Virus record (IMG/VR): IMGVR_UViG_3300025098_000152
Coordinates: 1-34,064 of that record
Length of the DNA stretch: 34,064 nucleotides
Reading direction: 5' to 3' (one strand)
Source of the DNA: a virus
A program made the translations under genes and the position numbers. This document shows positions 4,298 through 26,188 of this stretch, piece after piece. Every line of letters begins with the position of its first letter. The first letter of the stretch is position 1. Below the pieces are notes generated by a model. The model worked only from the letters and a program-made list of their open reading frames with translations, did no database searches and was not told the DNA's origin.

Positions 4298-6505
4298 TTA
4301 TCTCCAGCTTCTTTTTTTACGACCAAAGCGGCCACGTTTCGGAGCGCGATGCAATTCGCTTATCGGTGTCATACCTTGCTCAGTACCTCTATAAGAGTTA
4401 ATACCTTCTAGTATGGAAATAGGTTTTTCTTCTTTTATACTACGAGAACGGCTACTTTTTCCATCTTCTGGCCACAAACCTTGCGATTTGTATTTTTCTT
4501 TTATCATTCTATCTTCTTCGTCTGAACCACCACCTCTCATAATATTTAAAACATTTAAATCGCCCGAAGAGCCTTGTTTCTTTTTCGCCTCGTATAAGTC
4601 TCTAACTTGTTCACTCGGAGATCTGTAAATATTTCTTATTGTTTCCGCTTTATGAAAGCTGGGAGCGCTTATTTGCATTTGGCTACCCGAGTAGATAGAC
4701 TCTTCTAACACCAAGCCGCCAAGAGCAAGCATGAAAGCGTCAAGCCTGTGGTCTCCCACTTTTTCATTTTGCTTCCCGTATACAGGCTTATTGTTTTGCT
4801 TGTTCCGTTTTTCAATAATAAAATTGAAGAACTGGTTTTTTAAAACTTCTTCTTCTACTGGAAATTTGAACAAACCATCTTGAAGTATTCTTACTGCGTT
4901 CTCCACAAGAAAATGCTTGCCGGATTTTTTTATATCAGCATTTGTTATAGGGTCTTTTAACTTTATGTTACTGCTGAAATTAAAAGCTACCAACCTGTCA
5001 GCTATGAGTACTGTTTCTTGCTCTTTGGCAGTTTTGTTCTTTTTAGCTCGAAGTGTATATGATTGGTATTTTATGTCTTCAATTATTGTATGCCCATATC
5101 CTTCATCTGCGTAAATGTGATCTGGTTTCCACTTGTAGTTTAGATCTACCAGCTCTCTAATCCATCTTTTAGCGCTAAACTCTGAGTGCGGCACATTAAC
5201 AGCATCTAAAGCCAGCCAAATTTTACTGCCAGGAAAATACCCAATTACATAAAATTCCGTTCCTGCATTTTTATTCCAGTCGATACCAATAGCTATTGTT
5301 CTTTCACTTGCATTTCTTAACCCTAGTTTTCTCTCTAGTACTTGGGGCGAGTAAGCCTCGTCATAGGTATAATCTATACGTGCGTTATAAACCCAATCCT
5401 TTTTAAATACACCTTGTTGGTCTTCTATGAAAACAGCCATATATTCTGCCATAAAGGACTCTTGAGTAGAATCTCTTAGGATCTCTTCTTTAATCTGCTC
5501 CCAATGAGGAATAACTGAAGAGGGTAAAAAGTCTTCCCTAAAATCATCTCTAGACAAGCACCATTCATGAAACTTGCCCTTCTTGCCAATCGGAGTGGAA
5601 GTAGCTATAAGAATCGTATCAGGCGTTGTAGCTAAAATTGGATTGATGACTTTGTCCAACACCTCTTCTGGAATCATGTCCATCTCATCCAAGTAAACAA
5701 TAGAAGCGGACTGACCACGCATAGTGCCACCACCACTACCATCAGATCTCATGCCTATACCCGATACAAAACCTTGCACCACTGCACCATTTTTGAATTC
5801 CATCTTATACGTTGGGGTTTTTATGTACAGGCTATCTCCAGTGCCAGAAGAAACTTCGTTCATTAACTCTAAATTTCTTTTTAAAAGTTTTTCCATCTCT
5901 TCAAACAAGTTTGTTAATTGTGCCTGATAAGGAGTAACAATCATTATCGCAGGCCCCATATAAACTATGTTACCTTGTGAGTCTCTACCTCTATCTAGTT
6001 TTAAATTGTACGCGTAATATAAAAGTTTCAACGCTATCGCAAATGATTTTCCTGAGCGACGACCCTCTCTTACTGCCATCCTTTTGGAAGTGCATCGAAT
6101 CTGCTCTTTCTGATAAGATCTCAAAAACCATTTATCATCTTTGTCCGAAAAACCAAACATTAGCTCCACCCAAGCAGCAGGGTCTATTGATGCTTTTAGT
6201 ATTTTTCGCGCTTGATCTTCAGGGATTTCAGCCTCTTTAGAAATCTCTTTTATTCTTGACGCTGCACCATCAGGTAATTTTCTTGGTATATAAGTGCATT
6301 TTATCCTGTTCGAGCCGTATTTATTTATTTGTCTTATCTGGCAGGTTACGCAGGTTTTGTGGACATCTGTTTTTAAAGAAAATTCTCTCTTGAAATAAGT
6401 CAGCAATTCTTCTGGAATTGTTGCGTCTGGATCTTGATGACTTACACCATACTCGTTTGTAACATAAAGCTCACTCTCTATTAGCTTTTTAAGTTTAGGA
6501 TGCAT
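4298..6505 (-). CDS. terL: Terminase large subunit (DNA-packaging ATPase/nuclease)
   Basis: This 735-residue protein drives DNA packaging into the prohead and cuts the concatemer. The ATPase motifs are clear: Walker A around residues 146-154 (REGRRSGKS), Walker B SIVYLDEMD with D273/E274, and the coupling motif ATSTPIG at 301-307. The C-terminal RNase H-like nuclease shows AIGIDW with D409, YADEGY with D467, and a late VGDHRLDAF aspartate. The length is at the long end for TerL. The excess is an N-terminal extension of about 130 residues carrying H49, C52, C55 and C70, possibly a zinc-binding module, and a basic Ser/Arg-rich tail (GRFGRKKRSWR). It sits 1 base downstream of the 366-residue gene. 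The family call is firm. Confidence 0.95.
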   Translation of the reverse strand: MHPKLKKLIESELYVTNEYGVSHQDPDATIPEELLTYFKREFSLKTDVHKTCVTCQIRQINKYGSNRIKCTYIPRKLPDGAASRIKEISKEAEIPEDQARKILKASIDPAAWVELMFGFSDKDDKWFLRSYQKEQIRCTSKRMAVREGRRSGKSFAIALKLLYYAYNLKLDRGRDSQGNIVYMGPAIMIVTPYQAQLTNLFEEMEKLLKRNLELMNEVSSGTGDSLYIKTPTYKMEFKNGAVVQGFVSGIGMRSDGSGGGTMRGQSASIVYLDEMDMIPEEVLDKVINPILATTPDTILIATSTPIGKKGKFHEWCLSRDDFREDFLPSSVIPHWEQIKEEILRDSTQESFMAEYMAVFIEDQQGVFKKDWVYNARIDYTYDEAYSPQVLERKLGLRNASERTIAIGIDWNKNAGTEFYVIGYFPGSKIWLALDAVNVPHSEFSAKRWIRELVDLNYKWKPDHIYADEGYGHTIIEDIKYQSYTLRAKKNKTAKEQETVLIADRLVAFNFSSNIKLKDPITNADIKKSGKHFLVENAVRILQDGLFKFPVEEEVLKNQFFNFIIEKRNKQNNKPVYGKQNEKVGDHRLDAFMLALGGLVLEESIYSGSQMQISAPSFHKAETIRNIYRSPSEQVRDLYEAKKKQGSSGDLNVLNIMRGGGSDEEDRMIKEKYKSQGLWPEDGKSSRSRSIKEEKPISILEGINSYRGTEQGMTPISELHRAPKRGRFGRKKRSWR

Positions 6506-7609: not shown

Positions 7610-10600
7610 TTACATCCTATGGTGTGAGATTGGCGAATTAAACATATTGTGATTTGCTGCTACCTGCAAACTTTCCATCGCCACTTGCCGTTTATATTTT
7701 TGAATCTTTTTCATTTCATTAGACTCTTGGTTTTGAATCTTGTTTGCTTCATGAACCTTTTTAGCAGAAAGAGTGTCTTTGACTAAATGGTAATTATTTT
7801 CCCTTAAAGATCTACTGTTGAGTTTAGCACCAGACCCTTTAGAACCTCTATTCTTCACCATTCCGCCTAAATCACTTTTCATTTCGTCCATATGTGAAAG
7901 TATAGAATTAGTATTATAGCCAAAGCTTTGGAGATCTAAATCGTGCGGTAACGAATATTTCCTGTCTGGTTTAAAAACACTTACGCTATTTTTACTTTGA
8001 CCTGCTTTAAGTTTTTCTGACACCCCTTTAATGTCGTCCATTATCTGATCAGTTACCCCACCTGAAGATTGAGCTTGATTCATTAAGGATCTAATAGACA
8101 TTAAGTTTGCATTTTTTGCAACTTTTCTAACATTTGCTAAAGTGTTAAAAGTTGTAGTTTCACCACTGGCTCTGACTATCTCTTTGTAAGCTTGGAAAAA
8201 ACCTGTCTTCCACATTCCTCTTTTTGAATCTTGCGCATACTCTTGTGCGCTTTCAAAAGCTTGCTGGTTATATATCGGGGGTTTACCCTTAGATTTGTAG
8301 GGTAAGTATGCTGCCGCGCCTCTTCTTACTAACTCTAAGTTTAGATTTTTTCCATCGACGTAAATCATACCAACTTGGCGACCATATGTCGTGTCATCCG
8401 GACTCGTTACTAATCTTACATCTTTAGCTTTGTTGATCAAATCTCTTGCTATAGCTTTTGCTTTTTCCGCATACGGCTGTGCCTTTCTATCTGCATGCGC
8501 AGTCTCAGGAGCATCAATACCAGCCAAACGTATTGACATTGACTCTTGCTTTCCAGTACCCATAAAATCAGACAAAGGTGAATTTACATTTCCTTTCCTT
8601 TGAATAGATATTGTGTCTGCATCCTGTACGTTTAAATTAAAACGTTTCTTATCAAATTTATACTCTATTAGATTCTTACCTCTCAAAGACCCGCCATATG
8701 CATCTTCTGAAAGTCTTTCAGCTCCGCTGAAAATAATGTTTTTACTTTCTTTTGAAATACCCATTTGGCGTCTAAAAGCAGTAGAAATAAATTTTTTAAA
8801 GAAAAATCCTATATCACCTTTTTCGCTAAAGTGCCTCTGTCCAAATTTCTGCTGAATATATCTGTGGCGCTCCCTTCTCATTTGGTGGTCTTCAAGCACT
8901 CCTTGAGTATAAGCAGGGCCTTGATATGGAGATCCAAAATCAGTCAAGGCTTTTCTCATTAACGAGCCAAGCCCCGATTCTTGCATACCTTCTATACGAC
9001 CGTACTTTGCTTTTATGCTTTTGACATAAGACTCCTGGTTCCCTCCGTAAAATTGACTTTGCGCTTCAAGAAACTTGCTTAAATCAGGGGCTATTAACTG
9101 TCCTGACTTTTCGTCTTCGTAGCTCGTCTTCGTTGACAGTGCAGCTAACCCTCCAGCAATTGCTGCGTACTTGCCTAAGTGCATTTTTGCAATTTCTCTA
9201 ATGCTCTTATTTAAGTATAATGAACTCTTTCTTTTTGCTGACCGACTCACGCTTTCCGCAGCGCTGCTAACTGGAGGGAGCTTCTTGGAGCCACTACCCC
9301 CTTCCAAAGCTTTCGGCACAACCTCTGAAAGATTGCTTTGAGGTTTTGGTTTACTCAAGCCATCAGATATTGTTTCTTTATTTATATGACTTCCTAAAGC
9401 TTTTGTTGGAACTTCAATTTGCTTTTGCCTAGGCGCCTCTGACCCCATAAAACGCTGTATGTTCCTTAAAAAATCTTCGCTAAACTGCCCTCCAGACAAG
9501 CGCTCTTTAAACATCCGATGCACTTCAGGCGCAGCTTCTGATTGCTGCAAAGCAGCTTTTCTCATTCCAGGGCTATCAGCGATATCGCCTTCAGAATCTA
9601 AAAAGCGCCCGTAAGTTTTTTTTGCCTCTTCTAGTATTTCAGCTTTATCAACATTCTTATAGGTGTCTAAACCATTTAGATGGTCAAAAATTTCATCAAA
9701 ACTCGTTATTCGAACCTGCTTGCTTTGCGGACCTACAGTTATCTTTTCTTTAGATGTGATATCACCAATCTTTTTAGCTTGCTCCACTACTCTAAAACCA
9801 GGTTTGGACTCTCTAATGGTTACTGCACCTCTATCTATTCTCTCCAGCATGCTTTTTCCTACACGCTGCCTAAAGCCTATCTCGTCCAAACCTTTAGAAA
9901 CTGTTCCGTCTACTAACCTTGCTTCTTGATTGTAATAGTTGCTTAAATGACCATAAGTCATGAATCTGAAATAAGCCCCTTTGCCAGCTTTAGCTTGAGC
10001 AAGGAGTTCTTGTCCCTCACGTCCTCCTATGTCGACTAGACGTTTTGCCTCCAGTTGATCTAAACTTTCTTTGAGTACTTTGTCCTCTGTTATGGCTACG
10101 TCACCTAAAGCCATATGTGATTCAGCTTCACGCATAGCTTTAACTGCATCGTCAATCGATGCAATCTCTCCAGAGTCTTCAGCTAATCTTAATTGCTCTG
10201 TAAATCCAAAAAGACGGCCCTGAACTTCCATTGATAATGAGGTCGGCCCTTTTTGATCTATTATGCCTTCGTTTATCAATTGCGATTGTTGAGCCTTTAC
10301 CATATCTATAATATCTCTGACATCGCCCTCTTGAGTGTGTTCTAGTAAGGCTTTATACATTCCTGAAAAATCGCCACTCTTTAAAGCTAAGGATCTTTGC
10401 TTATTGTATTCAACTCCAGTCGTGTAAAAGGGATCTCCTGAAGTAGAAGATACTCCCTCAATAACACCATAGAATGGGTTTTGCGTCAGTAAATTTTTAT
10501 TTTCTGCTAGATTTAAAGCAGATAGTTCACTTTGGTATCTTCCATACTGAAAGCCTTCAAAGAATTGCTTCCTGTCTAAGGGTACCAGACCTTGAGACGC

Positions 10601-11695
10601 CCTATGATCTTTTAATGCTTCGAAAGATCTTTCTGCGCCAGCATCTATTTGTGCACCGAACTGCTTGGCTTCAAAAGATGCATTTGCAATCCATGTTATT
10701 TTGCCTTTTATTGCATTCGCTAAATCCTTAGTCATCAAGTCTTCAATAGAGTCAGTGCTTTTGAAAACTAAACCACCCTTGAACTTTTCAGAAAGTTCAC
10801 CCCTAGAACGACCTGTGGTTTCATGTATGAAATCTATCAGATCGTCGCTCGTAGCTTTGCCCGTTGATATCGCGTCAAACATCTTCCTTTTAGTTACAGT
10901 TTCTGGACTTAACGCTTTTCCTGCTTCATCTACCCCTATGCCGGCTTTAATTAATTTGTCTTCATCAGCTAATAAGAGCGCTTGAAACCTATCCGTCTCT
11001 ATTAAATAATCTTGAATCGAAGATTTTAAAGCGACGTCTGTCTCGACTAAAGGCTTTACTTCTTCAGCTAGCTGAAAAACGCTAATTTCATTTTTGGCAA
11101 ATTTATCTCTAATTTCAGCTAGCTCCGTGCTCAAGCTACCAGGCTCTTCTCCAATCTTCAACATGTCGACTAGAGTAGATATAAACTTACCTTCTCTGTG
11201 ACTTCTTACGTCTTGCTTTTTTCCTACTAATCTTCTTGGACCTCTTCTCGAAAGCGCTTCCTCCCCACCTGCTTTGTCTTGTGTTATCAACTCAGGCTTA
11301 GGGCTAAACATATACCCCTTTTGCTCTGCAGGGTTGTATACAGCGACCTGGTGGATTATGTCACCACCTTTAAGACCTGTAGTTTCGATGTCCATTAAAA
11401 TTGATTTTTTTAATATTTCATCTTTAGAAAGTTTTGTAGCAGGGCCTATTTTTTTTACATCATATTTTACTTCTCCAGAGCTCGTAACTCCAGTCGCTTC
11501 AGTAGCAGCAACAGAAATTATTTTGGCGTTTTTACCATAAGCAGCTTTCACTTTTTGAAGTATGTCGGCTTCTACTTGTTTCGGTTTTAAAGGAAACCCA
11601 TATTCTTGTTTTACGCCGTCTACTTCTAACTCAACAAATATTATTTGGGTTGCATCTGTCGTATTAATATAGCTGTAATACTTATTCTTAATCAT
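7610..11695 (-). CDS. Dual nuclease: DEDDh 3'-5' exonuclease plus staphylococcal-nuclease domain
   Basis: This 1361-residue protein has two recognisable nuclease domains. The N-terminal one (about residues 95-450) is DnaQ-like. It has Exo I ILMDIETTGL (D102, E104), Exo II WIANASFEAKQF with Glu where Asp is usual, and Exo III HTQEGDVRD of H-x4-D type. The second (about 1025-1165) is SNase/thermonuclease-like, with DADT, IRLAGIDAPET and YGRQVG carrying the usual Asp, Arg, Asp, Glu and Arg residues, ending in RGMWK. The middle and tail are long, charged and helical, and the C-terminus is HNMFNSPISHHRM. The start overlaps the 254-residue gene by 8 bases. Its length and its place in the virion operon suggest a packaged or injected protein, perhaps degrading host DNA or acting during infection. 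Both domain calls are strong; the role is inference. Confidence 0.85.
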   Translation of the reverse strand: MIKNKYYSYINTTDATQIIFVELEVDGVKQEYGFPLKPKQVEADILQKVKAAYGKNAKIISVAATEATGVTSSGEVKYDVKKIGPATKLSKDEILKKSILMDIETTGLKGGDIIHQVAVYNPAEQKGYMFSPKPELITQDKAGGEEALSRRGPRRLVGKKQDVRSHREGKFISTLVDMLKIGEEPGSLSTELAEIRDKFAKNEISVFQLAEEVKPLVETDVALKSSIQDYLIETDRFQALLLADEDKLIKAGIGVDEAGKALSPETVTKRKMFDAISTGKATSDDLIDFIHETTGRSRGELSEKFKGGLVFKSTDSIEDLMTKDLANAIKGKITWIANASFEAKQFGAQIDAGAERSFEALKDHRASQGLVPLDRKQFFEGFQYGRYQSELSALNLAENKNLLTQNPFYGVIEGVSSTSGDPFYTTGVEYNKQRSLALKSGDFSGMYKALLEHTQEGDVRDIIDMVKAQQSQLINEGIIDQKGPTSLSMEVQGRLFGFTEQLRLAEDSGEIASIDDAVKAMREAESHMALGDVAITEDKVLKESLDQLEAKRLVDIGGREGQELLAQAKAGKGAYFRFMTYGHLSNYYNQEARLVDGTVSKGLDEIGFRQRVGKSMLERIDRGAVTIRESKPGFRVVEQAKKIGDITSKEKITVGPQSKQVRITSFDEIFDHLNGLDTYKNVDKAEILEEAKKTYGRFLDSEGDIADSPGMRKAALQQSEAAPEVHRMFKERLSGGQFSEDFLRNIQRFMGSEAPRQKQIEVPTKALGSHINKETISDGLSKPKPQSNLSEVVPKALEGGSGSKKLPPVSSAAESVSRSAKRKSSLYLNKSIREIAKMHLGKYAAIAGGLAALSTKTSYEDEKSGQLIAPDLSKFLEAQSQFYGGNQESYVKSIKAKYGRIEGMQESGLGSLMRKALTDFGSPYQGPAYTQGVLEDHQMRRERHRYIQQKFGQRHFSEKGDIGFFFKKFISTAFRRQMGISKESKNIIFSGAERLSEDAYGGSLRGKNLIEYKFDKKRFNLNVQDADTISIQRKGNVNSPLSDFMGTGKQESMSIRLAGIDAPETAHADRKAQPYAEKAKAIARDLINKAKDVRLVTSPDDTTYGRQVGMIYVDGKNLNLELVRRGAAAYLPYKSKGKPPIYNQQAFESAQEYAQDSKRGMWKTGFFQAYKEIVRASGETTTFNTLANVRKVAKNANLMSIRSLMNQAQSSGGVTDQIMDDIKGVSEKLKAGQSKNSVSVFKPDRKYSLPHDLDLQSFGYNTNSILSHMDEMKSDLGGMVKNRGSKGSGAKLNSRSLRENNYHLVKDTLSAKKVHEANKIQNQESNEMKKIQKYKRQVAMESLQVAANHNMFNSPISHHRM

Positions 11696-12452
11696 CTAAA
11701 AGTATCTCTTCTGCGCCTTCTGGCGCTTCTATAGAATACAGAGCCTCTCTCAAACGAGATATCTCTTCTAGTACTCTCGAGTTATTATTAGACTCGCCCA
11801 TCTTAATCATGAACTCTGCTTTGGTCTTTCTAGTTTGAACCAACTTGTCCAACCACTTCTCACGTCGCTTCTCCAATCTATCAATCATTTCTATGATTGG
11901 GTGTAGCTTAGTTGTTTCAGCTCTATCTCCATTCTCATTAAAACCAGTAATATCTGTCATCATAAAATCACGTCCATCACCTTTTTTATCGCCTTGAGAT
12001 AAAACCATTAAGCTGCGGTTTTTATACAAGTCTATTAAAGCTAACTCATTCACTATAGACATTTCTACAGGATCATTAGGATCAACATCTAAGTGCTGCA
12101 AGTAGTCTATAATTTTTTGTTCTACAAAAAACTTTTCCATGACGCATTCGCGTCCAACAGGATAATTAGATATCGGCCCAAAGTCCAGATTCCCTTCCAC
12201 GTCCATATCCGGTATAGGGCAACGTTTAACGAACGGACATTTTTCAGGGCCTAGGCAGACTAAAGGCGCAGAAGCATGCACACCACTTTTTATTGCGCTA
12301 ACAGACTGTTTGACGCGCGTTAATTTTTTACTGTCTAATCTTGCTAGATAACTGGAATACTCATCACTAGATTTTGTTATAGTTTCGAAAAATTTGCCTT
12401 GGCGCAATTCTTTTGAATCATCTTTTTCAATTTTTACAAGTGAGTCTTTCAT
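11688..12452 (-). CDS. Cys-cluster protein, candidate terminase small subunit
   Basis: This 254-residue protein is the first gene of the leftward operon. A cysteine cluster (C66, C72, C78, C103; CLGPEKCPFVKRCP then GRECVMEK) could bind zinc or another metal. The C-terminal half is helical and ends in a charged segment (LEKRREKWLDKLVQTRKTKAEF) like that seen in small terminases of the P27-like kind. Position upstream of terL, in the same operon, supports a packaging role, but no family match is certain. The start ATG overlaps, on the opposite strand, the start of the rightward membrane gene at 12451. Alternative: a virion assembly factor with a metal site. Confidence 0.6.
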   Translation of the reverse strand: MKDSLVKIEKDDSKELRQGKFFETITKSSDEYSSYLARLDSKKLTRVKQSVSAIKSGVHASAPLVCLGPEKCPFVKRCPIPDMDVEGNLDFGPISNYPVGRECVMEKFFVEQKIIDYLQHLDVDPNDPVEMSIVNELALIDLYKNRSLMVLSQGDKKGDGRDFMMTDITGFNENGDRAETTKLHPIIEMIDRLEKRREKWLDKLVQTRKTKAEFMIKMGESNNNSRVLEEISRLREALYSIEAPEGAEEILLDD

Positions 12453-14158: not shown

Positions 14159-14189
14159 ATTTTATCCTAGAAAAGTGCTATGTTTTCGG

Positions 14190-14212
14190 AAGCCCCCTTC
14201 GGGGCTTTTTTT
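14190..14212 (+). terminator. Intrinsic terminator (element series, copy 1)
   Basis: A six-base GC stem AGCCCC/GGGGCT is followed by a T7 run. It ends the 156-residue gene's transcript. It runs directly into the AT box TTTTTTAATTTAC shared with the other copies. Confidence 0.85.
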
Positions 14213-14250
14213 AATTTACCCTACTTCAATGGATGCTTAAGCACATCCAT
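14213..14250 (+). promoter_or_regulatory. AT box plus hairpin, repeated element copy 1
   Basis: After the terminator T-run comes AATTTACCC, then a CAATGG core and a hairpin with stem ATGGATG/CATCCAT (14229-14235 with 14244-14250). The hairpin ends 73 bases before the next start codon, as in copy 3. Stem bases differ between copies while the pairing is kept, which points to a structure under selection. Confidence 0.5.
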
Positions 14251-14322
14251 CTCTCATGTTGAGGGTAAAGCGCACCAGTGCAATGCTTCTACGCAATTCT
14301 TCGTTGTCGGAAGGACATCATC

Positions 14323-15612
14323 ATGCGTAACTTATCTATCCTTGCCTTTATTGGCTTCCTATTCTTATTCACTGGCTGCGGCGTTGTGCGCAATGTGGCC
14401 TCAACCCTCAACCACGAGATCTGCGAAAAGAGCTACAACAAGTTTGTATGCCCAACCGTATCTGAACCAGCACATACACCCCTCTGCTATGGGGTAAGTG
14501 TACGCACCACTGCCGGAGTCGATAACTTTGCCCATACCGATCAGGGGCCATTTTGCAAGAAACTCCAAAATGAGGCTACGCGTAAAGCCTTCCAATCAAA
14601 GCCAGGGACAACCTGCGCCATCAAAGGCAAGGGTAAATTTCAGAAGGTTGTATGTGCCGGCTTCCATCACGCTGGCGGCATCTTACTCATCCTCTTGACG
14701 CTTCTTTGGGGGCGTGGTTTACGCGATCTTATGGTCGCTAGTGTAGAGAATGAAGATACCCGTCGCCCCTTTGATGGAATGTGGGAGGGGTGCAGAGTGA
14801 TGATTATCGCCTGCATTGGGGCTGTGGTTTTACTAGCGTTAACCACAAACGCTTATAGCCAGCCTTGTGTCAACAAGGCTTATACAATAAGTCAACCGTC
14901 TGACATCTTGGAGTGCGAGATGACCCTCTCCACTCCAGAGAGCAACATGAGGTATACTTTAGCGGCCCTAAATTTGGCTCAAGATAAAGTCTGCAATATA
15001 CACCATCCGAACATGGGCATTGTAGCTTGCTACGACCTCTATGACGAGGCCCGCGCCCTCTTTAAGGCGAGGGCAGCCTTGTTGATGCTGAAAGAAGCGA
15101 CACGAATCGTTGATATCAATGAAAGCGTCACGACCCCCACGCCATGTGGGGCAAATAAGCACTTGTGTGCTTCAGTGGGATGGGATAAGGCAAGTGGAAT
15201 CGGCCTATTCTTTTCCTTCATCATTTCTTTACTCCTCTCTCGTCGCAAGACGAGAGAGGAGTGGTTCGGTTTTGAAACACTCCTGTACAGGGAGACGAGG
15301 AACGCCGTTTGGGCAATCGAGGACGAGCTATACAAAGCTCGTTGGATCGAGCGTGTGATTGAGGCTGCAATCACTCTCGCAGCCTTCTCTTTTGGGGGGC
15401 TCGTATTAGGGATTACATCCACCTTCTTGGCCCAGAAGAGATACGGGTGGGCGAGCATCTTCTGTGTGTTCGTATCAGTTCTCCTCTGGGGCTCTGCCCT
15501 GGAATGGATCCTTTTTGTACTCAAAGCATTAACGTGCTTCCTCTCAAACACTGAGGAGGGGTTCCGTTTCGTTAGGTGGGCGCTCCATCAGCGATGGAAA
15601 CGTCAACTGTAA
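14323..15612 (+). CDS. Multi-pass membrane protein with lipobox-like N-terminus
   Basis: This 429-residue protein begins MRNLSILAFIGFLFLFTGCG. The hydrophobic leader ends in FTGC, a near-lipobox with Cys19, so it may be a lipoprotein or use this as a first membrane helix. Further hydrophobic segments lie near residues 117-130, 157-178, 304-322, 346-370 and 376-410. The extramembrane loops contain many cysteines (EICEKSYNKFVCP, PTPCGANKHLC), suggesting disulfides outside the cytoplasm. I chose the ATG at 14323 because CGGAAGGA lies just upstream; a GTG 45 bases earlier is weaker. It is flanked by terminator-hairpin elements and so is its own transcription unit. It resembles no family I can name; a phage envelope-modifying, export or exclusion protein is possible. 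Confidence 0.7.
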   Translation: MRNLSILAFIGFLFLFTGCGVVRNVASTLNHEICEKSYNKFVCPTVSEPAHTPLCYGVSVRTTAGVDNFAHTDQGPFCKKLQNEATRKAFQSKPGTTCAIKGKGKFQKVVCAGFHHAGGILLILLTLLWGRGLRDLMVASVENEDTRRPFDGMWEGCRVMIIACIGAVVLLALTTNAYSQPCVNKAYTISQPSDILECEMTLSTPESNMRYTLAALNLAQDKVCNIHHPNMGIVACYDLYDEARALFKARAALLMLKEATRIVDINESVTTPTPCGANKHLCASVGWDKASGIGLFFSFIISLLLSRRKTREEWFGFETLLYRETRNAVWAIEDELYKARWIERVIEAAITLAAFSFGGLVLGITSTFLAQKRYGWASIFCVFVSVLLWGSALEWILFVLKALTCFLSNTEEGFRFVRWALHQRWKRQL

Positions 15613-15646
15613 GTAAAACAATCAAAAAAGTATTTATGTTTTTTGG

Positions 15647-15670
15647 AGCTCCCTTTTGGGAGCTTTTTTT
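15647..15670 (+). terminator. Intrinsic terminator (element series, copy 2)
   Basis: A seven-base stem AGCTCCC/GGGAGCT with a TTTT loop is followed by a T-run that merges into the same AT box as copy 1. Confidence 0.85.
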
Positions 15671-15705
15671 AATTTACTCCTTTTAATGGGGGTTTAACAT
15701 CCTCC
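15671..15705 (+). promoter_or_regulatory. AT box plus hairpin, repeated element copy 2
   Basis: AATTTACTCC is followed by TTTTAATGG and a hairpin GGGGG/CCTCC (15688-15692 with 15701-15705, one G-T pair). It ends 61 bases before the next start codon. Confidence 0.5.
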
Positions 15706-15765: not shown

Positions 15766-16404
15766 ATGGCTTATAAAATCTTTAACAACACAGGGCGAGC
15801 CCTGTGCAGCGAAAGAGAGAATGGTTTTATTGTTCTCTTCTCAGAAAAAAGAGATTTCAAAGACTACCAATTCAACGACCTCGACGGAAAAGCGATAGTA
15901 GAGGCGATCTGGAGTCCAAGCGGTTTTGTTGACGCTCACTATTTCTTCTTCAGCAAAGTCTGGTTTTCTGCAGACAAGGTGAGATCATTCAACGATCTGT
16001 GCATCGTAAAGCGTGATCCAGCGTACCCAGAGCGCTTCATCGAAACACCTGTCAAGGAACTTAAAGAGAGCGTATTCCAGGCAATTCTTTCATGTTCATT
16101 TGACGGTGTTTCTGATGACGAGCTTCAAGACCTTGCTAATCTTCGATCCACATTTGAAGATGATCTTCGTCGCGCAAGAGACGAGGTAGAGAGATTCGCG
16201 CATTCGTGGAGATGCAGGGATGGGAGCGTTCTCCCAGCACACGATCAAAAGGTCATTATCCAGCTCCGTGAAGAAGAAAAGAAGAGGGTCGACCCATCAC
16301 TGTTGCTCCATTCCTATCACCACCTTATGATGGAGTTCAGAAGAGAGCTCCATCGCAGAGGACTAATTCTGAGAATGGGGAACATCGTTCCTTTTCAATA
16401 TTGA
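15766..16404 (+). CDS. 212-residue cytoplasmic protein, unknown function
   Basis: The protein begins MAYKIFNNTGRALCSERENG after a good AGGAG ribosome site. The N-terminal half looks beta-rich with many aromatic residues (DAHYFFFSKVWFS). The C-terminal half is helical and strongly charged (LRRARDEVERFAHSWRCRD, REEEKKRVDP). There is no signal peptide or membrane segment. Arg/Glu content suggests a nucleic-acid- or protein-binding helical tail. It sits between repeated elements 2 and 3, directly upstream of the giant polymerase-like gene, so it could be a cofactor of that protein, but this is only context. Confidence 0.65.
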   Translation: MAYKIFNNTGRALCSERENGFIVLFSEKRDFKDYQFNDLDGKAIVEAIWSPSGFVDAHYFFFSKVWFSADKVRSFNDLCIVKRDPAYPERFIETPVKELKESVFQAILSCSFDGVSDDELQDLANLRSTFEDDLRRARDEVERFAHSWRCRDGSVLPAHDQKVIIQLREEEKKRVDPSLLLHSYHHLMMEFRRELHRRGLILRMGNIVPFQY

Positions 16405-16443: not shown

Positions 16444-16481
16444 GCCCTGGAGTGCACCACCGCACTTCGGGGCAGTTTTTT
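16444..16481 (+). terminator. Intrinsic terminator (element series, copy 3)
   Basis: An imperfect stem GCCC..GTGC/GCAC..GGGC is followed by T6 and the shared AT box. It ends the 212-residue gene. Confidence 0.7.
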
Positions 16482-16520
16482 AATTTGTTTCCTTTAATGG
16501 AGAGATTATAGCAACTCTCC
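16482..16520 (+). promoter_or_regulatory. AT box plus hairpin, repeated element copy 3
   Basis: AATTTGTTTCC is followed by TTTAATGG and a hairpin GGAGAG/CTCTCC (16499-16504 with 16515-16520). It ends 73 bases before the ATG of the giant gene, the same distance as copy 1. Confidence 0.5.
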
Positions 16521-16592: not shown

Positions 16593-19500
16593 ATGCGTAA
16601 AGCAATTTTCTCACTTTTCCTTGGCCTGCTGTGGGCAGCTAGCTGTTATTCAGTCTATGTTGCTCCTCTAGCATTGCCTGCGTCCGCCGTGGATGCAGCG
16701 CCAATTGTTCATCCTTCAGCAGAGGTCGCAAAACCTCTTGCTACCAACCGCACTGACAACGCAACTGCTGAGATTGACCATCTTCGCAGTACTACTATTA
16801 ACAGTGGAAGCCCTACCCCTAGTCAAGGTACCTTCCCCATTAATAACCCTAACGCATTACGTCCTCGTCGTAGAGGTATTATGCGTCGCAGAAAGCTGAA
16901 GTCACGAAAGGGCAACCGCCTTGTTAGTGATGCCTTTATCAAATTTGTCTTTGGTTACCACCGTGTAACTTACATGAGTGGCAATTGGCTGTGTTACGAA
17001 GAGACGCCTTACACAGAGGCAGACTTCAAAGTGAGTAAACCAGCTAAAGCTCGTAAGAAAGCGAAGAAATCCTGGCGTCAGCTAAAGGGTGAGGCAACAC
17101 GTCTTTACCAGAAGGCTGCAAAGCTTCGTAAGCGCAATCCAGAATATCCGCCTGCAATAGCCTGTGCGGTGTTTGCCAAAGCACAAAAACTTCATCATAA
17201 AGCCAATGATATGAAGAAGGCATTAAAAGAGGCTCAACCGACAGCACGTCAACAGCGTTCATTCCGACGCTCAGTGTTGAGAGCGGAAGCCAAAACTTGC
17301 GAGCAGTTTATCAAAGCTGAGTTAGTGAGCAATGTGGACCAAGCTAAAGAGCTGATTCAAAAGGTCCTCAGTGGTGACACTAATGGAGCTGCATTGAGAC
17401 TATTACAAAAATCTCAATTAGGGCGCATTTACGTAAAATATGGTATCCTCCAGGCGCCGATGAAAGAGGAAGAAGTCGAGAGACCTACGAACCCAGTAGT
17501 CAGACACATCAAAGTAGCAGAAACCCCTGCAAGGGTATGGACCCCATTGATGCGTGCAGCGATTATAGTTATTGCACCACTCATGCTAGGTATGGATGCG
17601 GATGTAGGTACCGTCGCAGAAGTCACTTATGCTAGTGCTTCTGGTGGTATTTTAATGATGACCCTGAAGAACGTCTTGAATACTCCAGCCCGTAAGCGTG
17701 AAGCAGCGCAAGACGGGTACAATCGTTACGCAGAGCAGTCGATCAAAGCTGCAAAGGGTAGTGAATGGGATGTTTTCTCCCTCATGCGATTCAGTCGCAG
17801 TGGTAAAGGTGCGCCGATCACCAACGGCAAAGCCCACGATACTGACAAGCAGAAGGGTCGTGCTGTCCGTATTATTCAAGATAGCATCGGCGGGGCGTAC
17901 TGCCCAAAGGTAAAGTCATTCGCCAGGATGCTTGGAATTGAACTCGGCGTGGACAACTGTCTCCGTTATGAAGTTGACGACCAAATGGATGAGGTACTAA
18001 AAGCTGACGTCGTCGAGATCTTAATGGCAGCCAGCTTTGTTATTCTTTGTGACGGCTTTGCTGTTCACAAGAGCATTGCTCGCCCCTTCATTGAGTACGG
18101 GGAGACTATGTTCGGCAATGCTGTAGCTGTGCGCTCTTACTTCCGCAGTCTAATCACCACACCAGAGCTCTACACGGTCAACCAGGACTTACCTATCTTC
18201 TTGGGTGACCTCGATGAGCTTATGGGATGGGCGGAGAACGATGGTGGCGCTGTGCATACCAATCGCCTGAGCGTGAGCATGCAGTTCCGAGGGATCGCGA
18301 AAGTGCTTGAGGCGAAGTACCGCATCTTGTCCAAGGGCATCACAACTTCTGCTAAGGTTATTGCTGACATCACTGATGACGTCGACAAGCCTGTCTTCGT
18401 CAACTATGAAGGCGATGAGGAAGGCCACATCAAGGGTGAGGTTCGCCTAAGCAAAAAGGTTGACGAGTGCATCCGTGTTGCAGTAGAGGAAGAATTCAAC
18501 GCTCTGCATGCTGTTAACACGGCGACTAAAGAGCAGCTTTGCTTAGTTGCAGGAATTGGCCCTAAGACCGCTGAAAAGATCGTTGAAGCTCGTAATGCTG
18601 CAGGTGGGGCATTCGCTGACATGGATGCGTTCTACAACGTGTCAAGGCGCCTTGATCCCAGCAACCCGGACGCGCTTCGCGTCTTGCGTTGGTCTTTTGG
18701 CCACAAGGGCCGTGTTTACTCAGTGGGCCTATTCCTTGACAAGGGTTGTCTCAAGGGAGAAGACAAGAATGCTTGGGACTGGAACAAGCTCAACTTCTTC
18801 GGCGTCAACGGCCAAAATGTCGACTTCTGGTCTATCGCTATCGACCAGATTGGCGGCAAGATCAGCTTGGGCTGGCAGGTAGTCCAGTTATTAGACGCTG
18901 ACTTCATCGGCGGTTTGTTCAAGAACACTGATGGTAGTCTTGGAATCGCGGCCCAAAAGTTAGCGCGCCAGATCGACAATGCAATCGAGCAGGAACACCC
19001 TCTTTGTAAGCATCTCCTTGATGCAATTGAAGACAAGGGCGGTGACATTGAAAACTTGATGTCAGCCGTAAAAGCTATTTCCGTGCTTCAGGGCCTCGGG
19101 AAGACCGCCTCTAAGCGCATCAGCAATGGTCTCGGTGCGAAGGCAGGATCTTACTATGTTCAGATGATCGACATGGGTGGCGACTGGGTAATTATCAAAA
19201 CACCCAAGGCCAAGGATGGCAAGGGTTACAAGCGATGGGCTACTTGCTTCTTCGGTCGTACACCGAACCAGGGGCACGAGACCGTCCGCGCACCTATGGC
19301 GCTATCACCAACTTATGTCGGTGGATTCTTGAGGGATTATCTTGATAATGGCTTTGACGCTGTAGAGAAGCACGGCAAACAAGCCGTAAAATTCGTTATG
19401 GGTCTCAATGATGCTTGTGGTCATGATACCGATGTAGTACGTCTTCGCTGCCGTGCGATCTTGACGATGCTCCCAGCTGTAATTGATGGAATTGCTTTAG

Positions 19501-22500
19501 TCGACTCAACTCTACAACAAAAGGTATGCGGCGACAATGATGGCGACCGTAACATGATCAGCTTCGACAAGATGCTCGTTGCAATCGCCAAGCATATCAC
19601 CCGTAAGCATCCTACTACATTCCCTGCGCGCGAGCAGTCAAAGAAGTTCGTTCTCAATACCTTTGATGATGTGGTCTTGGAGAAGGGCGGCTGGCTTCGT
19701 AGCTTTAACAAGTACATGAAAACAGGTGACTCTTCGGAGTTGCTTCTCATTTCCAAGTTCCTTTCTGCCCCCGGTGGGACTCCAGGGCAAGGGAACGTGG
19801 GTGGTGTGACGCAATGTGCTGCTGCACCAATGCTTTTCTGTGACTGGCACTGGGTCAAGAAGGATGGCAAAGATGTCTACGAGCCAGTCAATCCAGCCGC
19901 TCGCAAGTTGGTCAATTATCTTTACTTGTGCCAGCAGATCGCCATTGACCGCCAAAAGTATTACTATTTGGCGCCTTCGCTGCTGCATTGGTTCTTTGCT
20001 GACCTTGAGGTTGGTGACGCAGTCATCAAAGAGTTGAAGGCAGGCGGCCATGCGGACACTAATTGGCTTCACAGTCACTACCCAATTCAGGGTGCTGCTG
20101 ATATGTCGTTCGAAGAATACCAAGCCGCTTGGAAAAATGGTACATTGCCTGTGATCTCAGAGATCATCCCAGGCATGGGTAAAGGCGCTATGGGCGGTCA
20201 ATCTGTCGCTCCGATGATGTACTCCAACGGCCCGCTTTACGTGTGGACCGCGTGGCAGGTTAACGGTATTAACCTCGGCTTTGATTACTTCGATAAAGAC
20301 AGGATGGTTGAGCTTTCTGGGTTCTTTGACGAAGAGATTGCTCAGACTGCTGACTGGCAGGGTATCATTGACCACCTCAATCTCAGTGTCTCAGCTGAAC
20401 AGCTCGAGGAAAGCTGGGTGTGGCCTGGCTACATCACGGGTTGGGTCAACACCAACTTCCGTGAGTCTCAAGATCTCTCTCCAGAGACCTTCCAGTCTGC
20501 TCGCATCCATGCCAACAATGTGTGGCTCGAGAAAATGGAGCAGGCAGGTATCGATGCTGACCCAGCCGTAACTCTCGTTGAGAGTGGGTTGGCTGACGTT
20601 CTCAAGGAAAAAGCTGGCGATTATGCAGTGGAAATGCCTGCATGGGGCACACGCCTGCTAGCAACTACAATCTACCGCAGCTATGTTGCAGGTAGCTCTG
20701 AGGCTGCTGAGGCTATGAGCCAAAGCGCTCGTCTGCAAACCGACCATCACGCGTCAGGCTCCGACAAACTTTCATTCCTCCGACAAGCTCTTACGTCACG
20801 CGACATGGACGTTTCTGTTGGGGATATGAAGATTATGGAGTCCATAAAGGATCTTCGTTTCGTTTGGGCTAAAGCGTTGCAGAATGACAAAATGTCGGAC
20901 GAGCGTCGACTGCAAGTCCTCTGCGCAATGATGCACTTCGGCATTACTGTCATCGCAGACTGCATCGAGGAGCTTGAGAACGATAAGACTTCTCAGATTG
21001 CTCAGAACTTCATCTGGGCACTTGAGGACCACGCAATTGCTGATATTGCCGCTCTAACTACCGCTGATAAGTGGAAAGAGTGGCGTGACGCTAATGATGC
21101 TACCTACAGCGGGCTAGAAGCAAAAAATCGCCGTGAGATGATGGATACCTGCCGAAAGCTCATGAATCGCGATGGATTTTACCACTGGATTAGCCAACAG
21201 AACCTCAACTCCCTCAAGGCAGAGGATATCGCTACCTGGTTGGTGATGGATGGTGAGGAAGCTCACAGCAAGATCATAGACTTTATCGGTTCTGACTTCT
21301 TCGGTGCAATTGGTGAGGCTTGGTCTCGTCAAGAGCTCAAGGGCTCGCGCAACAGCGTTGAGGATGAACTGATGGATATCATCACCGATCTTATGGAACT
21401 TCCAGTTGACGACAACTTCATGGGTTGTGTAGAGGGATACTCTCGTGACTTAATCCAAGAAATCAGGGACGATGAGCTGAGGCTCCAGTCTGAAGAGGTT
21501 TCGGATGAAGCACAGATGGCATGGTACTCGCTTAATGCGAGTGAGTATGAGCGGCATGTTGCCGCGATCACTCGCCCAATCACATCGTTGATCCGCTTGG
21601 TAAAACACCAGATGCGTGTGCTTGAGCACAACGTTGACAACGGTGCAAACCAGGAAGACGAGATTGATGTTTTCTGGCCAACCATCAAAGCCGCTCTCTT
21701 TGGCTCCCACAAAGAGCTCGATGATGAAACTGGTGAGTGGACTGACGTCACCCACGTCGAAAGTCGTATTGTTTACGAGCTACCCGTTCAGCACATCGCG
21801 ACCATGAACCTTGCGGCTCTCGAGCAGGGCTATGACGTCGAGATTCTCGTTGATATGATTGACAATCCAAAGTCTTTTTACGAAGACGAGGACGGTAATG
21901 TAGAGCTGCCTTCGGAGCCAGAGGGTTACTATTACACTCGCAAGGGGTACATCCACCTCAGCGCAATCATGACAAAAATGGCGCTTGAGGTCGAGTCTCG
22001 TGACGATGTATTGCAGTGGCTGATCGCTCAGTTCAAAGGCGGTGTTGGTCACGTCACAACCAGCAAGCACTTAACCATGGCGTATGGTTCAGCTGAGGGT
22101 CGTGATCACTTCTGGTTCGTTCCAGAGGAGGAAGCTTACCCTCAGTACCACAACGACCCGCAGGTGCTCCAGGTCCAAAAGACCTTCGAGTCTTGTTACG
22201 CTGAGACCGTCACAGTCAGCTACCTCCATGACGATGCTGAAGAAACCCTTGAGGCGCTAGAGTGTTTCGAGAATCCTGAAGCATTTTCGCCAGGGGATGT
22301 TCAATACTATGAGGACTATATGAAGGAGATGTTTGAGGTGCAGATGTATCTCCCACCTCTCTTCGGCGGCCGCTCTAACTGGGACGAGCTATATGATGGT
22401 AAGTATAGTAAGTTCTATGACGAGCAGCTAATTATGTCACCATACAAGTTGTTGCGCACTTACAGCTTCATGATGGAGGGCCAAGATGTTAGCCAGATGT

Positions 22501-23117
22501 CTCTTCCAGCTACGGTGCGTGACTTCCAGAATCTAGTCTATGGTTACACTGTTGGAGACAGCAAAGGCCAAAGCCAGGGTGTGCGCAGCAAAGAGGCCTA
22601 TAAGCGCTCTGGTCGCCAGCCTAGAAACACAGCGCTTAAGGATAACATGACTAAGAAGTCATGTGAGGATTGGACTTGGGCTGGTGTGCAGAAACCAATT
22701 ACCTCACAGCTCGAGGTCAAGTTCAATGGTTCTGAAGTTGTTGGTGCTGAGAACAACTTGTGCGACATCAGCATCCGTGGCTACCAAAACCACACCTTTG
22801 ATGAGTGTTGGCGCGGTGCGTACTCGTTGGTTCGTTTCACACCTAGCCTTCTCTGGAGCTTTGCCAACGTGATGGAACCTGGTGAATTCCAAGAGATTAA
22901 CGCTAAGAGCATCGCTAAGGTTGGCGCTTCTTCTATCCGTCGTCACTGTATTGGTTTCCGCAAAGCCAACTTTACAGAGATGGTTGAGGGAGTAAAAGTT
23001 ACGTCGTTAAAGATGGACCCAGCAATGGTTCCCTACCTTTTCGGCATCCTTGCGGATCAAGAGGAGATCGAGATCGGCATGGACGCTCTCAATAGTCCTG
23101 ACCGTCCTAACGACTAA
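16593..23117 (+). CDS. Giant protein with RNA-polymerase double-psi-barrel motifs (candidate phage RNAP)
   Basis: This is a 2174-residue protein. Motifs seen in order are TVRAPMALSP (R899-A-P901), VCGDNDGDRN (D981, D983, D985), GNVGGVTQ (1067-1074) and QQIAIDRQK (1114-1122). Bacterial beta' has NRAPTLH then NADFDGD. Cellular RDR/QDE-1 and YonO/crAss-like phage polymerases have D-x-D-G-D then an A-x-D-x-x-K helix. The order and spacing here fit that superfamily, in which the three Asp bind catalytic Mg. Upstream, residues 641-685 form a ComEA-like helix-hairpin-helix (VAGIGPKTAEKIVEA) for DNA binding. The N-terminus is odd: a signal-like hydrophobic segment (MRKAIFSLFLGLLWAASC), then a very basic region, and a second hydrophobic stretch near 322-336. 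The C-terminal half is acidic. Caution: DNDGD also resembles an EF-hand loop. The length is close to the crAss-like gp66 polymerase. It is probably a single-chain transcriptase for phage genes. Confidence 0.65.
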   Translation: MRKAIFSLFLGLLWAASCYSVYVAPLALPASAVDAAPIVHPSAEVAKPLATNRTDNATAEIDHLRSTTINSGSPTPSQGTFPINNPNALRPRRRGIMRRRKLKSRKGNRLVSDAFIKFVFGYHRVTYMSGNWLCYEETPYTEADFKVSKPAKARKKAKKSWRQLKGEATRLYQKAAKLRKRNPEYPPAIACAVFAKAQKLHHKANDMKKALKEAQPTARQQRSFRRSVLRAEAKTCEQFIKAELVSNVDQAKELIQKVLSGDTNGAALRLLQKSQLGRIYVKYGILQAPMKEEEVERPTNPVVRHIKVAETPARVWTPLMRAAIIVIAPLMLGMDADVGTVAEVTYASASGGILMMTLKNVLNTPARKREAAQDGYNRYAEQSIKAAKGSEWDVFSLMRFSRSGKGAPITNGKAHDTDKQKGRAVRIIQDSIGGAYCPKVKSFARMLGIELGVDNCLRYEVDDQMDEVLKADVVEILMAASFVILCDGFAVHKSIARPFIEYGETMFGNAVAVRSYFRSLITTPELYTVNQDLPIFLGDLDELMGWAENDGGAVHTNRLSVSMQFRGIAKVLEAKYRILSKGITTSAKVIADITDDVDKPVFVNYEGDEEGHIKGEVRLSKKVDECIRVAVEEEFNALHAVNTATKEQLCLVAGIGPKTAEKIVEARNAAGGAFADMDAFYNVSRRLDPSNPDALRVLRWSFGHKGRVYSVGLFLDKGCLKGEDKNAWDWNKLNFFGVNGQNVDFWSIAIDQIGGKISLGWQVVQLLDADFIGGLFKNTDGSLGIAAQKLARQIDNAIEQEHPLCKHLLDAIEDKGGDIENLMSAVKAISVLQGLGKTASKRISNGLGAKAGSYYVQMIDMGGDWVIIKTPKAKDGKGYKRWATCFFGRTPNQGHETVRAPMALSPTYVGGFLRDYLDNGFDAVEKHGKQAVKFVMGLNDACGHDTDVVRLRCRAILTMLPAVIDGIALVDSTLQQKVCGDNDGDRNMISFDKMLVAIAKHITRKHPTTFPAREQSKKFVLNTFDDVVLEKGGWLRSFNKYMKTGDSSELLLISKFLSAPGGTPGQGNVGGVTQCAAAPMLFCDWHWVKKDGKDVYEPVNPAARKLVNYLYLCQQIAIDRQKYYYLAPSLLHWFFADLEVGDAVIKELKAGGHADTNWLHSHYPIQGAADMSFEEYQAAWKNGTLPVISEIIPGMGKGAMGGQSVAPMMYSNGPLYVWTAWQVNGINLGFDYFDKDRMVELSGFFDEEIAQTADWQGIIDHLNLSVSAEQLEESWVWPGYITGWVNTNFRESQDLSPETFQSARIHANNVWLEKMEQAGIDADPAVTLVESGLADVLKEKAGDYAVEMPAWGTRLLATTIYRSYVAGSSEAAEAMSQSARLQTDHHASGSDKLSFLRQALTSRDMDVSVGDMKIMESIKDLRFVWAKALQNDKMSDERRLQVLCAMMHFGITVIADCIEELENDKTSQIAQNFIWALEDHAIADIAALTTADKWKEWRDANDATYSGLEAKNRREMMDTCRKLMNRDGFYHWISQQNLNSLKAEDIATWLVMDGEEAHSKIIDFIGSDFFGAIGEAWSRQELKGSRNSVEDELMDIITDLMELPVDDNFMGCVEGYSRDLIQEIRDDELRLQSEEVSDEAQMAWYSLNASEYERHVAAITRPITSLIRLVKHQMRVLEHNVDNGANQEDEIDVFWPTIKAALFGSHKELDDETGEWTDVTHVESRIVYELPVQHIATMNLAALEQGYDVEILVDMIDNPKSFYEDEDGNVELPSEPEGYYYTRKGYIHLSAIMTKMALEVESRDDVLQWLIAQFKGGVGHVTTSKHLTMAYGSAEGRDHFWFVPEEEAYPQYHNDPQVLQVQKTFESCYAETVTVSYLHDDAEETLEALECFENPEAFSPGDVQYYEDYMKEMFEVQMYLPPLFGGRSNWDELYDGKYSKFYDEQLIMSPYKLLRTYSFMMEGQDVSQMSLPATVRDFQNLVYGYTVGDSKGQSQGVRSKEAYKRSGRQPRNTALKDNMTKKSCEDWTWAGVQKPITSQLEVKFNGSEVVGAENNLCDISIRGYQNHTFDECWRGAYSLVRFTPSLLWSFANVMEPGEFQEINAKSIAKVGASSIRRHCIGFRKANFTEMVEGVKVTSLKMDPAMVPYLFGILADQEEIEIGMDALNSPDRPND

Positions 23118-24474: not shown

Positions 24475-24533
24475 TTTTAAGTGAAAGCTGTTCTTCGGAG
24501 CAGTTAGTAGCAAACTCGTTAACCGAAAGGTGT

Positions 24534-24547
24534 GACGAGACGAGACG
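24534..24547 (+). repeat. GACGA short tandem repeat, left copy
   Basis: GACGAGACGAGACG is followed by a GAGAC/GTCTC hairpin. A longer version occurs at 26189-26206, also followed by a short hairpin, so the two bracket most of the structured region. Confidence 0.5.
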
Positions 24548-24625
24548 TAGTGTCTCAAGCCTAATTCCCCTTGGCGTAAAAATGGGGCGAAAAACTTTTC
24601 CTGTCGGAACGAAAGGATCTTCATC

Positions 24626-24685
24626 ATGACCTACTGGGTTGATGAAAGAGGTGTTGTGCACTTCGAAAATCCACGAGCTCAATAA
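24626..24685 (+). CDS. Possible 19-residue peptide
   Basis: The ORF encodes MTYWVDERGVVHFENPRAQ. The upstream sequence (TGTCGGAAC..GGATCTTCATC) resembles the ribosome site of the 429-residue gene (TGTCGGAAGGACATCATC), which is the main reason to list it. It may be a leader peptide for the RNA region or chance. Confidence 0.35.
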   Translation: MTYWVDERGVVHFENPRAQ

Positions 24686-24862
24686 AAGCTTTATGGTCGC
24701 AGCTATGCGTAAATAGTGGGTAGCTATACCCTTGAAATAGCCGGAGCTATGATAGCTTCGTTAGTCAGAGAATGACAAACAATCTGATTTAGACTTTTAT
24801 TATAAAAAAGTCGGCAGCCTTATTAACGGACGGACGTAATGTCGCCAGTTTCAATAATAAGC

Positions 24863-24965
24863 AGTGTCGTCGGAAGCCCTTAGGGGTGGAAGACCTGATG
24901 AGTCTAGTAGTTCATTCTGCTAGCATCGCTTTAATTAGTGATGTCCTTTAGGGGAACGAAACACT
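24863..24965 (+). ncRNA. Type III hammerhead ribozyme
   Basis: All conserved core parts are present and in order. They are stem III AGTGT (24863-24867) pairing with ACACT (24961-24965), the cleavage triplet GTC with the cut expected after C24868, stem I GTC/GAC (24869-24871 with 24892-24894) with a CCC-TTA-GGG apex, the core CTGATGA (24895-24901), and GAA (24958-24960). Stem II starts as G24902-C24957 and T24903-A24956 and then opens into three abutting hairpins (24904-24923, 24924-24943, 24944-24955) with no unpaired junction bases. A self-cleaving RNA here would process the transcript. The short stem II and branched structure are unusual, so activity is not certain. Confidence 0.65.
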
Positions 24966-25903
24966 TTTCTCATCAAGACAGCTAACGCTGGGCCCAGTGA
25001 TTTTCTAAACACTTAAAAAAAAGAACATTAGAATTTTCAACGGAAGCCAGATGCGCCTTCGTAAAGAAAAGCATAGTGCTCGCTTAGACCTTCGGGTCTT
25101 ACCTGCGGAAATGAATGATAAGTTCATGTTCTAAAGGATACCAATGAGAAATGGTAAGCGGGTTACTGGCACAAGGTCGCAACTTGTGTCGCTGGAGATA
25201 AAACCAGTACCCTTAGACAAGGGGTGTGCGCGGTTTGTAGAAAAAACAAACCCATATGCGCCTCATGTCAGCAGGTCAAAATACAGTGGCTATTATCAGG
25301 CATGGTAAGTAAGTCAATAAAGAATTTCTCGGGGCTGTTCTCCCCACTTCAGTAATGTAGTACTTACTGTAATAATAGGGAACCAAGGGTCAGCCAAATA
25401 AGGCCCTGGCATGGAAGCTCCTTAGCGGGAGTGGGAAAATGCAAAACCAGCAAATCGATTAGCTAGCCTTAGCGGGCAAGTTACCGAAGAGCCGGGGATC
25501 TGTAATAGTGGTGTATTACAGACACAGTGCGAATTCCAAAAGGGGGAGCTGCCGTAGATATCTGCGGTAACGAACTTGATTAGGTGTTGCGTATTTGTGC
25601 CTTGTACGATTATATTGTGCAAGGGTTGTGAGGAATTGGAACGCCTCGCCTGATGAAGAGATCATTAAAAATCTGCGATCTCTCTTGGACATCCTTTGTA
25701 CTTCGGTACATAAAGTCGAAACCAGCAGTCGTCTATCCAGCTATGTCAAATCCACTGCGACATATTAGAGGGATATAAAATATTAAGTGGTACCTTCAGC
25801 CTACAATGCGTTTCAGGCCGGTGTAAAAATAAGAAACGAAATACGGTTAGCGTTAGAAAGTGCGTCCGTTCTTCAGTAATTTACTGGAGTGACTTTCATT
25901 TAT

Positions 25904-26030: not shown

Positions 26031-26188
26031 TTAGTCTCTCAGCACAGAGACAATCACAAGCCCTGTAGAAAGGAATATACAGGCCAGGGTAGACTCCCAA
26101 TAATGGTAGAGTCCCCTGAATTAAAAGCGCGATTAAAGCGCTCAAGACTACTTTTCCTAAGGGTACAACACTTATTATTTTGACAAAA

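Follow-up and report, generated by a model that had tools for sequence, protein, structure and literature searches.

A single-chain two-barrel RNA polymerase-like protein family of uncultured viruses with profile similarity to YonO

Among the relatives of the cellular transcription enzyme, the single-chain two-barrel polymerases are the simplest, and they can inform us about its origin. To our knowledge, few families of this kind have been described, and most of them can be aligned only at a few active-site residues. YonO of Bacillus phage SPbeta is strictly DNA-dependent and transcribes the late genes of this phage; a triple D-to-N exchange abolishes its activity (PMC5467207). The 218-kb Bacillus myophage 0305phi8-36 encodes an RDR-family polymerase (orf99) together with candidate phage promoters (PMC2147016). 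In QDE-1 the first double-psi barrel comprises residues 680-782, with the invariant residues Q736, K743 and K767 (PMC1750930), and gp64 and gp96 of P23-45 have been placed together, separate from QDE-1 and gp66 (PMC10770324). In the present study we analysed a 34,064-bp uncultured virus record (IMG/VR IMGVR_UViG_3300025098_000152, positions 1 to 34,064; this whole stretch is called the window), which carries an open reading frame (ORF) for a giant protein of 2174 amino acids (aa). With a probability of about 0.85, we predict from its sequence that this protein belongs to the YonO/RNA-silencing (QDE-1/RDR) clade of single-chain two-barrel RNA polymerases and that it is most likely DNA-dependent, not part of the virion and serving later genes.

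Protein family, conserved motifs and fold

The ORF, first delimited in an initial annotation of the window, indeed runs through 2174 codons without a stop. When the protein was compared with Pfam, PHROGs, NCBIfam and PDB sequences, a helix-hairpin-helix was the sole match. Relatives were present in IMG/VR: a near-identical record (G005), a 79%-identical one (G004) and, retrieved with a DNA pattern for GDNDGDxN, three divergent ones (G001, G002 and G003), of which G001, located on a 161.8-kb contig, displays 28% identity across 1215 aa. QQxxIDxQKY, the second motif scanned, contributed G006. A scan with a 254-aa neighbour gene (54-91% identical within the clade) revealed 20 loci; most of those with sufficient upstream sequence carried the polymerase ORF in the same place and orientation, and two more divergent members were obtained, G008 (locus L222, 1858 aa) and G007 (locus L237, only 1106 aa). 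The family thus comprises the window and seven distinct IMG/VR homologues, 1106 to 2175 residues long, with identity down to about 18% and a common genome position. Members retrieved with a single motif, or solely by way of the neighbour gene, also contain the remaining motifs, which argues independently that these are genuine. A spaced regular expression of six motifs, derived from these members, selected family members alone among 546 ORFs of at least 400 aa.

Outside IMG/VR, no credible tblastn match for the window protein was detected among INPHARED phages, crAss-like phages included. Scans of GTDB genomes revealed no relatives, either among the loci returned with the polymerase core or among the matches listed for GDNDGDxN. 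Three loci (L227, L228 and L229) contain the 254-aa neighbour and no DxDGD ORF of at least 350 aa in the 7.5-10 kb of upstream sequence examined; the polymerase may have been lost, moved or replaced there. In all seven records compared (the window, L036, L037, L038, L195, L222 and L237), the G+C content of the polymerase gene is 4-13 points above that of the rest of the available sequence.

The core alignment (eight rows, 312 gap-free columns) contains 19 invariant columns: D550, G551, Q564, K581, G582, R889, P891, G980, D981, D983, G984, D985, E1014, L1057, G1065, Q1115, I1118, D1119 and K1122. All but two of them (17/19) fall in known two-barrel motifs or in segments aligned with YonO, and the ordered set is, as read from the alignment, the signature of single-chain two-barrel polymerases. 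The motif sets of both barrels are found in one chain of 2174 aa, unlike in the multisubunit beta/beta' polymerases, whose barrels belong to two separate chains. The same order is seen in the shortest member, L237 (TDGSG ... QFTY ... AKGIIVP ... RFPN ... GDDDGD ... GPVGIAT ... IQYAIDSAK), and in YonO (TDGCG ... FMVRLPWVKGLL ... RSPH ... DNDGD ... NIGEYSNN ... FTIDFAK). K721 is present in seven rows as aligned, and L222 has an unaligned ELKG; the correspondence of Q564, K581 and K721 with Q736, K743 and K767 of QDE-1 was established by motif order, not by superposition. In the core (residues 830-1140) of the two closest members, 128 codons differ synonymously and 30 non-synonymously.

The initial annotation had proposed a catalytic barrel from three motifs, R899-A-P, D981-N-D-G-D985 and Q1115-I-A-I-D-R-Q-K1122. 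Each occurs exactly once, at the residues given, and the two-barrel (beta'/RDR/YonO-type) reading is supported by the signature kept in eight members, by the profile similarity to YonO and by a double-psi model of barrel 1 in the minimal homologue. The first motif was misplaced, however: homologues read VRCP, VQLV or LNCI, among others, at R899-A-P901, and the invariant R-x-P is R889-T-P891, ten residues earlier, present in all eight members with its arginine 46-103 residues ahead of the aspartate triad. The ComEA-like helix-hairpin-helix noted upstream of these motifs is also present (Pfam HHH_3, E 8.8e-9, aa 638-685); it is an insertion in barrel 1 and occurs in only three of the eight members.

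Comparison with the YonO family by hhalign gave a score of 51.9 (P 3.1e-5), while 120 column shuffles averaged 14.2 and did not exceed 23.5; the alignment spans DNDGD, (N)xGxxxN and QxxIDxxK together. Against YonO alone the score was 33.1 (at most 23.8 in 150 shuffles), and with barrel 2 only it was 37.4 (at most 19.1 in 100 shuffles). Of the relatives named in the initial annotation, YonO is therefore a significant match, and the window protein is nearer to it by profile than to the crAss-like gp66. The latter was rejected as the closest relative: its best register places R-x-PNQ on RIPNQG with a score of 20.2-23.3, which was reached by 1-2 of 120-150 shuffles.

Several observations weigh against this assignment. 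The comparison of barrel 1 only with YonO was marginal (20.8, equalled by 1 of 100 shuffles), and a search with the Pfam RdRP model PF05183 gave no hit with an E value of 10 or below, although the record of the YonO phage was likewise unmatched in the same search. The signal-peptide-like N-terminus seen in three members is unexpected in a polymerase. The AlphaFold2 model of window residues 470-1260 (six rows) was unusable, with a predicted local distance difference test (pLDDT) value of 37, and that of L237 (eight rows) has pLDDT below 45 around the catalytic barrel 2. In the L237 model only barrel 1 was folded (fragment residues 28-134, pLDDT about 70). Its VIA-align matches speak for the assignment (ZmRDR2 494-623, Z 7.3; designed double-psi barrels, Z 6.7; QDE-1 650-790, Z 6.6; and p97-N), but with Z below 8 they single out no family and may reflect a common arrangement. 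The best Foldseek matches of this model (E 0.013) were p97-N domains, likewise of the double-psi barrel fold, and nothing was found in BFVD. We conclude with moderate confidence, from the homologue L237 only, that barrel 1 is a double-psi barrel; the predicted fold class is consistent with a polymerase.

Regarding the N-terminus, an AxA-type site (between LPASA and VDA) is present in the window protein, with a similar style in G004 and G001 and not in the other members. Codons 1-95 of the window gene are weakly constrained.

Proposed function and alternative explanations

In the proposed enzyme, one chain would hold two double-psi barrels, at about residues 540-730 and 880-1000. Barrel 1 would contribute Q564, K581 and K721, facing the triad, and barrel 2 would contribute R889-x-P and D981/D983/D985, the predicted ligands of catalytic magnesium by homology. 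GQxNVGG and QQxxIDxQKY would form a region beyond the active site. The RNA would most likely be made from a phage DNA template, since YonO is DNA-dependent and the context is that of a double-stranded DNA phage. The enzyme would most likely be absent from the virion and transcribe middle or late phage genes, because it is encoded next to tRNA genes and small genes of non-structural type, on the other strand than the terminase/structural operon. Catalysis, template, timing and promoter use, as well as any function of the C-terminal stretch of roughly 1,000 residues, are what we infer here.

A less likely alternative is that the protein is a virion polymerase, packaged in the particle, ejected with the DNA and transcribing early genes, as N4 vRNAP, phi14:2 gp66 and P23-45 gp96. 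Giant size, a hydrophobic N-terminus and a membrane-protein neighbour would then be needed for ejection or for anchoring at the site of entry. In size the protein is comparable to the virion protein gp66 of phi14:2 (2180 aa); three members have the hydrophobic N-terminus, a lipoprotein-like protein is encoded directly upstream, and in crAss-like and P23-45 phages the virion polymerase is found in fusion with large proteins (PMC10770324). However, in all eight members the gene lies outside the terminase operon and opposite to it, the N-terminal leader is missing from five of them, and L237 is only 1106 aa long. The tail operon of G001, moreover, contains another large ORF, with DFDAD, which would be better suited to this role.

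It is improbable that the polymerase fold serves synthesis on an RNA template or of primers (RDR-like or primase-like) rather than phage transcription. RNA-silencing polymerases are among the nearest structural matches of barrel 1, and QDE-1 accepts DNA and RNA templates (PMC2950127). On the other hand, YonO, the nearest relative by profile, is strictly DNA-dependent (PMC5467207), and no RNA-silencing partners were seen within the window.

We consider it very improbable that the protein is a former polymerase which has lost catalysis and become structural or regulatory. The lineage-specific additions are large, and polymerase activity is predicted from sequence; nevertheless, members with as little as about 18% identity still have the triad, the lysine motifs of barrel 1 and R-x-P, and synonymous changes prevail in the core of the two closest members. 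Least probable of all is an EF-hand or other calcium loop in a large structural protein with coincidental polymerase motifs, a possibility raised by the initial annotation: DNDGD does resemble a calcium loop, and unrelated GDNDGDxN matches were common in the bacterial scan, but this reading fails because no member has the G of an EF-hand at loop residue 6 (all eight have R, M or T there), residues 8 and 12 are not conserved, and the remaining motifs occur together, in order, and can be aligned with YonO.

Candidate promoter and genomic context

The element TTTAATTT-N(3-8)-TTYARTGG (22-23 nt) is present in three copies in the window, each located after a terminator-like hairpin and ahead of a gene of the polymerase cluster (Table 1). 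It was found in no shuffle, a count which overstates its rarity, since the pattern was drawn up after the copies had been seen. Better evidence is its recurrence in G004, G001 and G008; all four copies of the 161.8-kb G001 contig are situated within 10 kb around the polymerase gene. The exact form of the element is not present in G002, G003, G006 or G007, and sigma-70 promoters near the polymerase gene showed no excess over shuffles. The element may be a candidate promoter of the window polymerase or of another polymerase; with such a sequence alongside the enzyme, polymerase and template specificity could be studied together.

Table 1. Positions of the polymerase-like gene, its motifs, the candidate promoter copies and neighbouring genes in the window
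Feature	Position	Strand	Remarks
Giant single-chain two-barrel RNA polymerase-like protein, 2174 aa	16593..23117	+	uninterrupted ORF; homologues
Hydrophobic, signal-peptide-like N-terminus (aa 1-32)	16593..16688	+	in three members, with upstream GAAAGG ribosome-binding site; absent from other five
D550-G551, barrel 1 motif 1	18240..18245	+	invariant 8/8; YonO TDGCG, L237 TDGSG
Q564 ... K581-G582, barrel 1 motif 2	18282..18338	+	invariant 8/8; QDE-1 counterpart Q736/K743
ComEA-like helix-hairpin-helix, aa 638-685	18504..18647	+	insertion between barrel 1 motifs 2 and 3; 3/8 members
K721-G722, probable second barrel 1 lysine	18753..18758	+	QDE-1 K767; YonO SQFK
R889-T-P-N-Q893, barrel 2 R-x-P	19257..19271	+	YonO RSPH, phi14:2 RIPNQG
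G980-D-N-D-G-D985, predicted metal-binding aspartate triad	19530..19547	+	GDxDGD invariant 8/8
G1065-Q-x-N-V-G-G, after barrel 2	19785..19805	+	aligned to YonO NIGEYSN
Q1114-Q-x-x-I-D-x-Q-K-Y1123	19932..19961	+	aligned to YonO IDFAK
Hairpin 16444-16473, then TTTAATTTGTTTCCTTTAATGG 16479-16500	16444..16500	+	candidate terminator and phage promoter, 92 nt ahead of polymerase ATG
Same element, copy 1: hairpin 14188-14209, TTTAATTTACCCTACTTCAATGG 14210-14232	14188..14232	+	
Same element, copy 2: hairpin 15645-15666, TTTAATTTACTCCTTTTAATGG 15668-15689	15645..15689	+	
444-aa membrane/lipoprotein-like protein, polymerase cluster	14278..15612	+	G001: 523-aa protein, similar N-terminus, same place
212-aa protein, polymerase cluster	15766..16404	+	
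254-aa conserved neighbour, CxGPxKCPFxxxCP	11688..12452	-	54-91% identical across clade; probe for syntenic polymerase genes
1361-aa protein with staphylococcal-nuclease domain, conserved neighbour	7610..11695	-	
Terminase large subunit	4298..6505	-	related to Moorella MTATph1, Acinetobacter ME3, Bacillus KLEB27-3

According to its annotation, the terminase of ME3, one of the relatives of the window terminase, is a homologue of the 0305phi8-36 terminase. A profile search of ME3, MTATph1 and KLEB27-3 for a polymerase of the window family found none and gave motif-level leads only. G001 is a contractile-tailed phage, as indicated by its portal, major head and tail-sheath genes. Its tail operon contains a 2420-aa ORF (L196:1282-8544, G001 contig 61281-68543) with a helix-hairpin-helix and RFPQ...GDFDAD, and a 'structural protein' of KLEB27-3 (gp034), adjoining a baseplate gene, carries RYPT...ADYDGD; no significant match was detected between the two. 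Judging from its motifs, the G001 ORF is possibly a second two-barrel polymerase, of the virion type. We tentatively suggest, as a scenario with rather low odds, a lineage of large myoviruses with private transcription, in which a giant YonO/RDR-clade polymerase would recognise a dedicated, terminator-linked TTTAATTT-N-TTYARTGG promoter governing a self-contained polymerase regulon, and a second two-barrel polymerase, from the tail operon, would travel in the virion. If true, the two-polymerase strategy of phiKZ would have here a counterpart made up entirely of single-chain two-barrel enzymes.

G001 also encodes a PurZ-like 2-aminoadenylosuccinate synthetase (L242:18630-19739, phrog_1211) with an apparent adenylosuccinate lyase adjoining, and its genome possibly contains 2-aminoadenine. 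In the window, about 2.35 kb (24475-26824) are without a convincing gene and contain GACGAGACGAGAC repeats at 24534, 26189 and 26194. Further downstream are a gene for a 238-aa protein with a CNNM-type transmembrane domain (27569-28285; Pfam E 4.9e-8), unusual for a phage, and genes for tRNA-Met and tRNA-Lys (31624-31782).

Comparison with described polymerases

The kind of polymerase represented by the window protein is already known, given the RDR-family orf99 of 0305phi8-36. The family is new in the sense that it is unlabelled in the libraries searched, and it may coincide with one of the 23 two-barrel families of PMC10770324. It adds one member near the size of YonO and others twice as long, shows which residues are fixed at less than 20% identity, and carries a helix-hairpin-helix module within the first barrel.

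The product of orf99 (gp99) resembles the window protein by description: it is an RDR-type polymerase of a large contractile-tailed phage with a related terminase lineage, encoded near candidate phage-specific promoters (PMC2147016), but it matched an extended Pfam RdRP model, whereas the window family has no PF05183 match. The crAss-like virion polymerases, represented by phi14:2 gp66, share the giant single-chain two-barrel organization, a similar size, R-x-PNQG before the triad and the K-to-R spacing (310 versus 308). They differ in the triad (DFDID), in the absence of significant profile similarity and in being virion proteins encoded within a structural cluster. QDE-1 and plant RDR2 have in common with the window family the barrel-1 fold match and the Q/K/K and aspartate-triad motifs; their sequences are beyond the reach of Pfam RdRP, and host, partners and biology are different. 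The phage polymerases gp64 and gp96 of P23-45 likewise combine two barrels in a single chain and have a DxDxD triad (PMC10770324).

YonO (SPbeta/SPBc2) also consists of a single chain, in which TDGCG, VKG, SQFK, RSPH, DNDGD, NIGxxSN and IDxxK follow in the same order as their counterparts in the window protein. It is, however, only 839 aa long and has no BLAST link to the 2174-aa window protein, which has about 540 residues ahead of barrel 1, the helix-hairpin-helix within this barrel and about 1000 residues beyond the core. The segment between R-x-P and the aspartates comprises 92 residues in the window protein and about 43 in YonO, and the value for L237 (46) is near that of YonO.

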